NCBI RefSeq assembly: GCF_032854445.1
Contig: NC_088304.1
Location: 34,154,810-34,218,809 of the forward strand
Direction of reading: 5' to 3'
From: Liolophura sinensis
Lineage: Eukaryota > Mollusca > Polyplacophora > Chitonida > Chitonidae
DNA length: 64,000 nt
The translations under genes and the position numbers were made by a program. This document shows, in pieces, positions 22,632 through 62,757 of this stretch; position 1 is the first letter of the stretch; each line of letters opens with the position of its first letter. The notes under the pieces were generated by a model. It was not told the DNA's origin and did no database searches. It saw only the letters and a program-made list of their open reading frames with translations.

Positions 22632-24558
22632 TCATCCCTGCTTTTGTTCATGACTGCTGAATTTGTCCTGTTCTGTACCCAATACATCCTTCTCGATTTC
22701 CCAAAGATCAATTTGCTTTTCTTTAATGGCTTTCTGAAACAAAAAAAGAGAAAACTAAACTGATATTAATGTTTAATTCAAACAAACAAAATCACACAAG
22801 AGAAACACTACCACCTGTGTGAATCATGTATAATCATTTTGTTAGTCTACCACATGTATGAATTTATTTTGTTTGTGTAAAGATGAAGAACCAGGCGTTG
22901 TCTGTGCTTGTTGGTGACCCATTTTCACTCTCTGATATTCACTGTAAATACTCTTCACTCTACAAGGCACCATGTGATGGCAATTAATTCTTTACTATAG
23001 TGATCTTTCCAGATAGTGCAGGATGAAGAAGTTTGCTTTTTACGTGCCTGTCACTAGGCGGAACGTATCATGTTATATCGATTTGGTCCATCTGTCTGTC
23101 TGTATTTGTGTCCGGGCTATATCTCCTATTGGATTCCATGGAGAGTTTTATGATTTGGCTGATACACAGATAACGATGTCCCACAACTCACATTTGTCAA
23201 TTTCCGCAGTTGTAATGCTTGTCAGATTGTCCGGGCTATAACTCCCAACTGTTTTCTGCAGAGTTTTAATTTTATGTGGATACATACATACATACACAGA
23301 TGACGACCTGTCACAGCTCACATTTGTCCATTTTCACAGTTATCATGGCTACCAGACTGCCATTTTCCTGGTTCCTGGGCCTCACGATTGCAAACGGTGG
23401 ACATGTACGTCCTAAGAACCCAGATGGTCTTGTATATGATGGACGGCCATATTTGTGAAGTTCAAGTGAGCGAGGCTGAACTTACTGAAGTATTGATGGA
23501 TATTTACCTTAAGACTGATCAACTGCTCAGGGTTTTATCAGTCTTTCGGGTTTGAAAGGCAACTGAGTTTTGGTATTGAAATCCTCAAGAAAACTATTAC
23601 ATTTCACTTGCCATCTGCAAGAACAATGTCAACATTCTTAATTCAATCCAAAAAGGCATAAAAAAAGAACTTGTATACTTTGGTGCAGGTAAGTTTGGGT
23701 GCCGTGAGCACAGACCTCATTCAGGTCAGCCCCATCGAGTTGGGGTGTGCAGATGTGCGGCGATTGATTTGAGAGTTGTCGATGGACGTCTGAAAGGTCA
23801 ACCACGCATGCGTGGGGAGCTACAACTCTGTTATTATGTCACAATGTCAACACAGCCTGTCAAGTAAGTCACAACAGTGAATTATCTTAGATTTACTGGT
23901 CATAAAGGCTAGAGAATGGGGGAAAATTGGCAGAGGAGCACAGGTTAATTTGTTTCTCCATGCCAGGTTGTTTGTAATACCAATATTTTAACCTGGAAGA
24001 CTCCTCGGCTGTGAACTATGCCTAACCCCACCATCCTTGGCTAGCGGTGTAGGACCCTAAGCATTGTAAAGGAGTACCTAGACAGGCCGCAGAGGTTATT
24101 AACTGGCTGTTTTCTGACACTTTACAAAGCTTCCTACTCGGGTGAATGGGGCCCTGCCTAAACCCGAAAGACTCCAATTAGTTTTCTTATACTGGCATAG
24201 CGTCGTTGGAGTCCTGATGCTTACAATGTTAATTCCTTACTAAATGAAGGTCCAGGCCGATTGTCTTTGTTATTAAAAAGTCTCGTGCAAGTACAAATAT
24301 AGAAAACCGAACTTAGTCACCTAGGGCAATGGTACTACGACTCCATGACAAAAATCTCCATAACCAATGTAAATCACATATTTTCAGACAATATGGTTCC
24401 TTGTTCCACATTACCTTAACACATTCCTGGTAGCTTTTGAACAGCGGGGCACACGTGTCTTCCTTGTGACCTTTCAGAAATTTTTCGGAAAACCAATGAT
24501 TGAAACAAGTGTCATACACATCTTTTAGCTCTTGGCAGTCTTTTCCTATGCTGTTCAT
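22632..24558 (-). CDS. TRIAP1: TRIAP1 (Mdm35-like) twin CX9C mitochondrial intermembrane-space protein
   Basis: Two coding exons: 24558-24415 (48 codons) and 22733-22632 (33 codons plus TGA). They are joined in phase 0 across a 1681 bp intron with GTAATG donor and TTTCAG acceptor. The product is 81 residues, against 76 in human as I recall. It begins [18 protein letters not shown] and has both CX9C pairs, Cys8/Cys18 and Cys36/Cys46, plus the family's WFSEKFLKG segment and [11 protein letters not shown] after the second pair. In the family, TRIAP1/Mdm35 is imported and oxidised by Mia40 and partners PRELI-type proteins to carry phosphatidic acid between mitochondrial membranes for cardiolipin synthesis. 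A simple frame reading runs through the donor to 24313; the spliced form is clearly the correct one. Divergent neighbour of GATC. Confidence 0.95.
23099..23365 (+). repeat. About 130 bp imperfect tandem repeat in TRIAP1 intron
   Basis: Two diverged copies, each with 'gtccgggctata(t/a)ctcc', then 'agagtttta', an 'acacagat' segment, 'ctcacatttgtc' and 'cagttgtaatg'/'cagttatcatg'. It lies wholly inside the intron. Confidence 0.7.
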
Positions 24559-60900: not shown

Positions 60901-62757
60901 TCCGAACAGTCCCATGAACAAGCAGTATCCACATGTCTATGTACTGTTGATTGAACTACCGGTACCCACATGTCCAGATATTGTTAAATAAACTACCCAC
61001 TTGTTTAGGTGCTGTTATATAACCTACCCACCTGTCTAGGTACTGTTACATAAACTACTGCTACCCCCACATGTCTAGGTACTGTTAAATAAATTACTGG
61101 TACCCACATGTCTATGTAGTGTTACACAGGCTACCTACCTGTCCAGACTCTGTTAGACACAAATAATCCAACTTGTCTGTGAACTGTTACACAAACTATT
61201 CACTTTGTCTGTGAACAGTCACACAAACTATCAACCTTGTCTGTGAACTATCACACAAAGTATACATTTTGTCTGTGAGCTATCACAAAAACTATTCACT
61301 TTGTCTGTGAACTGTCACAGAAACTATTCACGATGTCTGTGAATTGTCACACAAACTATCCCCCTTGTCTGTGAACTATCACACATACCATCCACTTTGT
61401 CTGTGAACTATCACACATACCATCCACCCTGTCAATGAACTATCACACATACCATCCACCCTGTCAATGAACTATCACACAAACCATCCACCCTGTCAAT
61501 GAACTATCACACATACCATCCACTTTGTCTGTGAACTATCACACATACCATCCACTTTGTCTGTGAACTATCACACATACCATCCACTTTGTCTGTGAAC
61601 TATCACACATACCATCCACCCTGTCAATGAACTATCACACATACCATCCACCCTGTCAATGAACTATCACACATACCATCCACCCTGTCAATGAACTATC
61701 ACACATACCATCCACTTTGTCTGTGAACTATCACGCATACCATCCACCCTGTCATGAACTATCACACATACCATCCACTTTGTCTGTGAACTATCACACA
61801 AACCATCCACCCTGTCAATGAACTATCACACATACCATCCACCCTGTCAATGAACTATCACACATACCATCCACTTTGTCTGTGAACTATCACACAAACC
61901 ATCCACTTTGTGAACTATCACACATACCATCCACCCTGTCAATGAACTATCACACATACCATCCACCCTGTCAATGAACTATCACACATACCATCCACTT
62001 TGTTTGTGAACTATCACACATACCATCCACCCTGTCAATGAACTATCACACATACCATCCACTTTGTCTGTGAACTATCACACACACCATCCACTTTGTC
62101 TGTGAACTATCACACATACCATCCACCCTGTCAATGAACTATCACACATACCATCCACCCTGTCAATGAACTATCACACATACCATCCACTTTGTCTGTG
62201 AACTATCACACATACCATCCACCCTGTCAATGAACTATCACACATACCATCCACCCTGTCAATGAACTATCACACATACCATCCACCCTGTCAATGAACT
62301 ATCACACATACCATCCACTTTGTCTGTGAACTATCACACATACCATCCACCCTGTCAATGAACTATCACACATACCATCCACTTTGTCTGTGAACTATCA
62401 CACAAACCATCCACTTTGTCTGTGAACTATCACACATACCATCCACCCTGTCAATGAACTATCACACATACCATCCACCCTGTCAATGAACTATCACACA
62501 TACCATCCACTTTGTCTGTGAACTATCACACAAACCATCCACTTTGTCTGTGAACTATCACACAAACAATTCACCTTGTCATTAAACTATCACACAAACT
62601 ATTCCTTTTTTCTGTGAACTGTCACATGAAGTAAACTGTACCCACCTGGTCTGGAAATTTGCGTATACTCTCCACCAGGTACTGATAAGAGTTCCAGTCC
62701 CGCGCTATCACCTGTCCCATCACTGGGATCACTTGAAATGAGTAACTGTCATACAAG
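48911..62757 (-). CDS. COQ5: COQ5, ubiquinone biosynthesis C-methyltransferase (last two exons)
   Basis: Two exons on the minus strand. 62757-62646 encodes 37 residues starting [20 protein letters not shown] and ending [10 protein letters not shown]. 49012-48911 encodes 33 residues plus TGA, containing [18 protein letters not shown] and ending AIHSGFKM. They join in phase 0 across a 13,633 bp intron with CAG|GTGGGT donor and TTGCAG acceptor. Together they match the C-terminal end of COQ5/UbiE, the SAM-dependent enzyme that methylates the benzoquinone ring (2-methoxy-6-polyprenyl-1,4-benzoquinol) on the matrix side of the inner mitochondrial membrane, within the CoQ synthome. The first 62-bearing exon starts in phase 2 (one base completes the previous codon). 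Upstream exons with the SAM-binding core must lie beyond 64000; I found none in 62758-64000. All the minisatellites from 52 to 62.6 kb lie in this intron. Confidence 0.93.
49325..49366. repeat. Perfect 14 bp inverted repeat (hairpin)
   Basis: Left arm 'ataccccctaccta' (49325-49338), right arm 'taggtagggggtat' (49353-49366), loop of 14 nt. It sits in the COQ5 intron and has no T-run suggesting a pol III terminator. Confidence 0.9.
50551..50880 (-). mobile_element. SINE family 1 fragment expanded into an about 89 bp tandem repeat
   Basis: Begins as a normal tail-first SINE ('ttattcgactgatgttttat', 'gccgtactcaagaatctttc'). Then a piece of the body ('ggtaggaaactgggcagagc' to 'cacatgaccatccgcagtgt') plus a 'gcagtgtacagtgtaggttt' spacer recurs about three times with a period near 89 bp (50641, 50730, about 50820). 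Confidence 0.8.
51985..53945 (+). repeat. 20 bp minisatellite, about 2 kb, in COQ5 intron
   Basis: Unit 'ctgtctatctgtacatccat' with variants ('cagtcatcagttcatccat', 'gtgtctatctgtacatc'). The sequence lacks stop codons in any plus-strand frame, which creates overlapping frames of up to 664 codons; since 20 is not a multiple of 3, each frame cycles through the same 20-residue pattern. Low-complexity Cys/Ser/His/Tyr frames of this kind are artefacts. A 592 bp higher-order duplication lies within (see findings). Confidence 0.97.
54140..55235 (+). repeat. G-rich 12 bp minisatellite, about 1.1 kb, in COQ5 intron
   Basis: Units of about 12 bp, 'ggggacagttgt', with variants 'gggggctgttgt' and 'ggggcagtgt'. 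Runs of four or five G occur every 8 to 12 nt on the plus strand for over 1 kb. Long frames on both strands (up to 386 codons, Pro/Thr/Cys/His on minus) are artefacts. Confidence 0.97.
55439..55460 (+). repeat. (ATT)n microsatellite
   Basis: Short run of ATT repeats following 'gataaataaagat'. Confidence 0.8.
55537..55730 (+). repeat. 24 bp minisatellite, 8 copies, in COQ5 intron
   Basis: Unit 'gtcacgacatacagatgagg' plus 'cgcc', nearly perfect. Two units have 'cgac' for 'cgcc', creating GACGTCAC (CRE-like). Because 24 is a multiple of 3, all frames are open with 8-residue repeats (HDIQMRRR); there is no other evidence of coding. Confidence 0.95.
55731..57394. other. COQ5 intron between arrays
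   Basis: AT-rich and non-repetitive, with no recognised coding sequence or SINE. Confidence 0.5.
57395..57950 (+). repeat. 16-17 bp minisatellite, about 0.55 kb, in COQ5 intron
   Basis: Units 'ggttttgatggcaggg' and 'tggttttgatggcaggt', about 32 in all, with local variants (gattttgatggc, ggatttgatggc). Minus-strand frames (177-184 codons of Pro/His/Lys/Ser) are artefacts. Confidence 0.96.
58545..60960 (+). repeat. 31 bp minisatellite A, about 75 copies, in COQ5 intron
   Basis: Unit 'gtcacatgaactacccacct' plus 'gtctaggtact'. Common variants are 'cataatctacccacct' and 'gtccagatact'. In COQ5 sense (minus strand) most units read CTAGACAG|GTGGGTAGTTC, which includes a good 5' splice-site match. 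The unit is clearly like the COQ5 exon/intron border at 62646 (see findings). Confidence 0.97.
60961..61200 (+). repeat. Transition zone between minisatellites A and B
   Basis: Diverged units of mixed length ('aactaccggtacccacatgt', 'ctgttaaataaattactggt', 'caacttgtctgtgaactgtt') that bridge the two unit types. They show that B and A share descent. Confidence 0.8.
61200..62625 (+). repeat. 32 bp minisatellite B, about 45 copies, in COQ5 intron
   Basis: Two interleaved unit types: 'gaactatcacacataccatc' with 'caccctgtcaat', and the same start with 'cactttgtctgt'. In COQ5 sense each carries GGATG|GTATGTGTGATAG, another donor-like string. The array stops about 20 bp before the COQ5 exon at 62646, the last partial unit merging into the exon border. 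Confidence 0.96.

Follow-up and report, generated by a model that had tools for sequence, protein, structure and literature searches.

Why should five gene families lie in one order, and on the same strands, in a mollusc and in a vertebrate? The question is raised by a 64-kb window of the genome of the chiton Liolophura sinensis (the whole stretch analysed, 64,000 nucleotides, C10:34154810-34218809; positions without a contig are counted from its first nucleotide), in which six genes from five families are arranged as TRIAP1(-), GATC(+), SRSF1/9(-), DYNLLa(+), DYNLLb(+) and COQ5(-). For human 12q24.31, the accessible part of one published gene list reads MSI1, COX6A1, TRIAP1, GATC, SRSF9, DYNL1, NRAV, COQ5 and RNF10 (PMC11867633), and an excerpt of a second gives the same order, with COX6A1 not listed (PMC11321361). 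All six chiton coding genes were found, as splice-consistent models with Pfam matches, on the strands that the initial annotation had assigned; their order matches the human lists, and none of the five human genes is missing from the chiton run, as had also been claimed. The claimed identity of orientation holds as well, given the strands of human TRIAP1, GATC, SRSF9, DYNLL1 and COQ5, which we take to be the same as in the chiton. Most likely the five-gene order survives from the ancestor shared by molluscs and vertebrates. As to how it persisted, the explanation we lean towards is that the inherited order was retained as a chain of divergent pairs with shared promoters, helped by close spacing and slow rearrangement.

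The gene identities are based on exon-level models and on searches of the whole assembly (609,464,459 bases in 632 contigs, of which C10, with 36,632,598 bases, represents 6%). Translated open frames were read on both strands from 1 to 34 kb, on the minus strand from 33.4 to 41 kb and from 55.3 kb onwards, and in both flanks, while the plus strand from 34 to 48 kb was covered by a PF01221 search, the list of open reading frames (ORFs) and Pfam scans of the longer ORFs. Exon ends were set at splice sites, and the three multi-exon models (TRIAP1, GATC and SRSF) keep their reading frame and show GT-AG at all internal boundaries. The block proteins match UPF0203 (1e-23, TRIAP1), GatC (4e-10), RRM_1 (3e-34, SRSF), Dynein_light (2e-43, DYNLL) and Ubie_methyltran (5e-58, COQ5, queried as joined exon pieces).

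TRIAP1, whose coding exons 24415-24558 and 22632-22733 are on the minus strand, encodes 81 amino acids, its best PDB match is the TP53-regulated inhibitor of apoptosis 1 (2.8e-20), and PF05254 matches the whole genome only here. GATC (exons 24978-25064, 26504-26673 and 27224-27353, plus strand) was assembled by splice fit, which is the sole basis for assigning its first exon, the presequence. All three matches of the GATC protein in its own genome are its own exons. The genome profile search with PF02686 had yielded no GATC, probably because the introns split the domain, and it was the spliced protein that matched afterwards. The SRSF1/SRSF9-type splicing factor comprises exons 36730-36893, 35937-36121, 34733-34905 and 34247-34396 on the minus strand and carries two RRMs, with SRSF1 as the best PDB match (6.5e-94). 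Its nine genome matches consist of the four window exons, one intronless relative that is 48% identical and four RRM matches at 39-44%. The intronless relative is an SRSF1-like open frame at C12:19288990-19289673 (minus strand), possibly an old retrogene.

The DYNLL family is represented by two tandem copies of the LC8 dynein light chain, each of 89 residues and with an uninterrupted coding exon: copy a at 41176-41445 (+), with dynein light chain 2 as its best PDB match (2.6e-56), and copy b at 47128-47397 (+), which shares 85 of the 89 residues. PF01221 has 11 matches in the genome, two in the window, six near C10:23.05-23.09 Mb, one on C8 and two on C1. The C10 cluster at 23 Mb contains three copies that agree with the window copies at 90-97% of residues, a diverged one and a frame-broken one that accounts for two matches. 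With five further full-length copies outside the window, DYNLL alone is not diagnostic, and because of these many copies the orthology of the window pair to vertebrate DYNLL1/2 rests on position. A retroposed origin, considered in view of the uninterrupted coding exons, is disfavoured by acceptor-like sites ahead of the two start codons and by the position of the copies. A separate observation concerns five LC8 paralogues, the window pair together with those at C10:23.06-23.07 Mb: the ten pairwise alignments extend over 272-290 bp as compared with a coding sequence of 270 bp, the synonymous divergence (dS) within a cluster is only 0.15 to 0.35 with the diverged and broken copies excluded, and the flanks are not alignable in register. 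In these alignments the likeness is confined to the surroundings of the coding exon and looks like the outcome of exon-limited gene conversion or of strong silent-site constraint.

COQ5 closes the run on the minus strand. Its last coding exon (48911-49012) corresponds to positions 201-233 of PF01209 and has an acceptor, a consistent frame and a stop, and its penultimate coding exon (62646-62757) joins the last in frame with AG/GT/AG signals. The initial annotation let the block end at 62757, which falls on this penultimate exon; COQ5 is indeed present, but only its last two coding exons are inside the window. The remaining 5' exons lie to the right, as three further PF01209 segments and a first exon read by eye, whose start codon falls at window-equivalent 71310, 7.3 kb past the window. 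A mitochondrial COQ5-type methylase was the sole PDB match at the cut-off used, and five of the seven PF01209 matches in the genome are COQ5 exons, the other two being single-exon matches elsewhere at 38-40 bits. The last intron (49013-62645, minus strand, 13633 bp) is about 57% minisatellite arrays, which lie within 52003-62626, have units of 12 to 37 bp and make up some 7.8 of its 13.6 kb; one array stops about 20 bp short of a COQ5 exon. At the end of a COQ5 exon near 34221.9 kb of C10 stands a short direct repeat, GIRNVTHIDKV in two copies with GT after each, a possible alternative donor pair.

Within the run no additional gene was seen: 33 of the 34 ORFs of at least 75 codons lying wholly between block coding regions have no Pfam domain, the 34th, in the TRIAP1/GATC spacer, was left unscanned, and short exons between the block genes could escape such a scan. 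In the window neither ARAGORN nor Rfam at gathering thresholds reported any match. The only run of N in the window, 2042-2241, lies outside the block, and none occurs in seven 10 kb pieces of the flanks. Orthology was judged, provisionally, from the single loci of TRIAP1 and GATC, the best match of SRSF to SRSF1, the five of seven PF01209 matches that are COQ5, and the position of DYNLL. That the whole arrangement is an artefact, by chance, by paralogues taken for orthologues, by contamination or by mis-assembly, has a negligible probability. It would draw on the five further full-length DYNLL copies and on the fact that genome searches can miss weak matches, a lone match being no proof of a single copy; opposed to it are the one place each at which TRIAP1 and GATC matched, the lack of any N run inside the block and a rough random-order model that expects 3e-14 five-gene runs genome-wide and 2.5e-9 within one shared chromosome, so that chance amounts to about 1e-9 or less. 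On these grounds chance, contamination and mis-assembly were rejected.

The run ends on both sides. To the right, COQ5 is followed by a plus-strand gene with matches to DUF4042 (2.3e-11) and HEAT in a Pfam scan of joined exon pieces, which by similarity is presumably HEATR6; the two start codons are 229 bp apart. To the left of TRIAP1 stand an intronless rhodopsin-type receptor gene (14330-15553, plus strand) and, beyond the window, VPS53(+), and ten ORFs left of TRIAP1 have no Pfam domain. The top solved-structure matches of the receptor are the orexin-2, neuromedin-U 1 and TRH receptors. Since the human flanks are COX6A1 and RNF10, the shared run extends from TRIAP1 to COQ5.

Five more 12q24.31 families were sought genome-wide, namely Musashi, COX6A, POP5/RPP14, malectin and paxillin (RNF10 and the other genes of 12q24.31 were outside this search), and the four that could be located are all on C10, at 0.7 to 30 Mb from the block, for which the chance is about 1.3e-5. 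Musashi-like exons occur at C10:33.42-33.50 Mb(-), 0.68 Mb from the block; they are four of 31 matches to the query, with 59-74% identity, the highest among these matches, and in gene order. Joined, they score 101 bits with hnRNP A2/B1 against 87 with Musashi, in a comparison where the hnRNP A2/B1 chains hold both RRMs; the RRM1 fragment is ambiguous (hnRNP A2/B1 90 bits, Musashi-2 86) and the RRM2 fragment favours Musashi (45.7 against 35.0 bits). COX6A, queried with a fragment, gave four exon matches at C10:36164833-36169143 (+), apparently two tandem copies, 1.9 Mb to the right of the block, not adjacent to TRIAP1, in agreement with the earlier remark that COX6A1, its human neighbour, is missing from the window; a PF02046 genome search found no COX6A, the profile being silent in control genomes too. 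POP5 or RPP14, which PF01900 cannot tell apart, is at C10:30.83 Mb and malectin at C10:4.24 Mb, while paxillin (PF03535) had zero genome matches, an uninformative result as the controls were also silent. With the 12q24.31 families on C10 but dispersed, the chromosome at large is common to chiton and human, and local order has been scrambled around a block that is itself intact.

This pattern bears directly on whether any constraint need be invoked at all. Where lineages rearrange slowly, not every 50 kb run will have been disrupted so far, and out of thousands of ancestral runs some with five genes would survive by default; we regard such unconstrained inheritance as a serious rival, though on the whole rather unlikely. 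The linkage preserved on one chromosome amid an order scrambled over 0.7 to 30 Mb speaks for it, as do the close spacing of the genes, which lowers the breakage per junction, and the hundreds of bilaterian blocks on record (PMC8851819; PMC9023564, as far as available). It accounts less readily for six genes that have stayed contiguous, with order and strand intact, between two rearranged edges. Moreover, according to the accessible part of one survey, vertebrates lost 84% of the blocks new in the bilaterian ancestor (PMC8851819), and survival in both lineages would then be selective or lucky. A further proposal is that of a genomic regulatory block in which the enhancers of one gene, lying inside its neighbours, hold these in place. 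Such an origin has been published for some microsyntenies, e.g. wnt7 and atxn10 (PMC8851819, in part). It is nevertheless improbable here, for no developmental regulator is found among the block genes by identity, with families taken from Pfam and roles from established knowledge, and the nearest candidate found, Musashi, is 0.68 Mb off.

What could have held the run together is suggested by its geometry. The alternating strands, - + - + (+) - [+], make it a chain of head-to-head pairs joined tail to tail, with coding gaps of 419, 6893, 4282, 5682 (tandem DYNLL) and 1513 bp, then 229 bp between COQ5 and HEATR6, and it is compact, with six genes in 48.7 kb where the genome averages one per 21.8 kb. 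Genes whose divergent starts are less than about 1 kb apart form bidirectional promoter pairs. Of the three head-to-head spacers, two are short enough to house a common promoter, and TRIAP1/GATC (24559..24977, 419 bp) and COQ5/HEATR6 (229 bp), both running in opposite directions, resemble such pairs as measured between start codons; a shared promoter is plausible for either on this sequence basis. The third, SRSF/DYNLLa (36894..41175), differs in that 4282 bp of coding distance separate its start codons, although an acceptor-like site immediately in front of the DYNLLa ATG suggests that the first exon of DYNLLa may lie closer to SRSF. Over 24300-25200 the observed/expected CpG ratio is 0.94 against 0.58 for the window, which weakly suggests a promoter between TRIAP1 and GATC, but between 22 and 50 kb the ratio is equally high in eight 500-bp windows, some of them overlapping, in which no coding start lies.

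Retention may then have worked through the divergent pairs TRIAP1/GATC, SRSF/DYNLL and COQ5 with its right neighbour, set tail to tail. A break within a shared promoter would damage two essential genes, and the close spacing of the genes, in a lineage of slow rearrangement, would keep breaks at the other joints infrequent. Shared promoters, high gene density and slow rearrangement combined are in our judgement the most likely reason for survival. The initial annotation had put forward shared regulation, or interlocked promoters and 3' ends, as a possible cause. Another conceivable cement is expression. The initial annotation described the five genes as functionally different, which is half right: by established knowledge TRIAP1, GATC and COQ5 all encode mitochondrial proteins. 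Three of five families would thus serve mitochondria, and co-expression in an open domain might keep housekeeping and mitochondrial genes together, in keeping with the raised co-expression reported for denser blocks in the available parts of two studies (PMC8851819; PMC9023564). We give this little credence, as SRSF and DYNLL are not mitochondrial and COX6A, which is, lies outside the neighbourhood.

A second human region adds to the history of the run. SRSF1/SRSF9, DYNLL1/DYNLL2 and MSI1/MSI2 are pairs derived from the vertebrate genome duplications. For a 5.2 Mb interval of 17q22, an excerpted gene list includes MSI2, CUEDC1, SRSF1, VEZF1 and DYNLL2, with HEATR6 29 places past DYNLL2 (PMC4256931). 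HEATR6 beside COQ5 in the chiton and its presence in the 17q22 list together suggest that the ancestral run may have included HEATR6, which would have followed COQ5. A vertebrate genome duplication would then have split the run, with TRIAP1, GATC, SRSF9, DYNLL1 and COQ5 kept at 12q24.31 and SRSF1, DYNLL2 and HEATR6 in the other copy at 17q22-23; the data fit a single ancestral run parted between the two human copies by loss. That one chiton run maps onto both regions suggests that it reflects the order before duplication, with HEATR6 adjoining COQ5. It may also be, as a tentative refinement, that the unit under selection was the divergent pair and not the block, for COQ5 has changed partners, standing beside HEATR6 in chiton and RNF10 in human, and the second human copy has kept SRSF1 with DYNLL2. 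In that case animals that have lost the block should keep TRIAP1/GATC and SRSF/DYNLL, with breaks falling at the tail-to-tail joints.

Several points weigh against an ancestral order preserved by shared promoters. By its coordinates VEZF1 presumably lies outside the SRSF1/DYNLL2 pair. The 17q22 list, in the part available, however prints it between the two (PMC4256931), and in the corresponding part of a third human list GATC precedes TRIAP1 (PMC11061283). With two species compared, shared ancestry rests on improbability and not on a tree; the human strands are presumed, and promoter sharing is judged from start codons. Only one of the five internal junctions is tight, the coding distances being 6.9 kb for GATC/SRSF, 4.3 kb for SRSF/DYNLLa, 5.7 kb for DYNLLa/DYNLLb and 1.5 kb for DYNLLb/COQ5, and the differing right partners of COQ5 show that a divergent pair can be dissolved or formed anew. 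The best-scoring of the 31 Musashi matches are on C8, C13 and C1 (30-46% identity), the C10 exons having been picked for their higher identity. Finally, under a lax definition vertebrates inherited 70 blocks as compared with 110-124 in shuffled genomes, according to the accessible part of the survey (PMC8851819).

One of the closest known counterparts is human 12q24.31 (MSI1-COX6A1-TRIAP1-GATC-SRSF9-DYNLL1-COQ5-RNF10-POP5; PMC11867633), which agrees with the chiton from TRIAP1 to COQ5. Unlike it, the chiton has two DYNLL copies, HEATR6 in place of RNF10 on the right, and on the left a G-protein-coupled receptor and VPS53, where COX6A1 and MSI1 stand in human. The 17q22 list resembles the chiton run in having SRSF1 and DYNLL2 near each other and in containing HEATR6, the chiton right neighbour, but differs from it in that TRIAP1, GATC and COQ5 are absent from the available list and HEATR6 is 29 places from DYNLL2.

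More broadly, the run can be compared with the bilaterian microsyntenic blocks. No title or abstract treating this block as microsynteny appeared among the open-licence literature matches listed, though we make no claim that it is unpublished. For the bilaterian ancestor, 256 new blocks were inferred in the available part of a survey covering 49 animal genomes, against 45-56 in shuffled genomes (PMC8851819), and metazoan blocks kept number 275 in squid and 216 in scallop in an excerpt of another study (PMC9023564). The initial annotation had called such conservation unusual, a view that these 256 blocks in the bilaterian ancestor alone do not bear out, even with the vertebrate losses. As a run common to chiton and human, the locus is a test bed for the survival of local gene order and could help to separate the constraint of shared promoters from plain slow rearrangement. 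Like the published blocks, which hold at least three orthologous genes with at most five between them (PMC8851819; PMC9023564), it is dense, has probable orthologues as members and joins a lophotrochozoan with a vertebrate. It goes further in that its five families keep strict order and strand and no gene was seen between them, while the survey needs no collinearity (PMC8851819, in part). We read the chiton run as probably one more inherited bilaterian microsyntenic block, a known category of which hundreds are on record.

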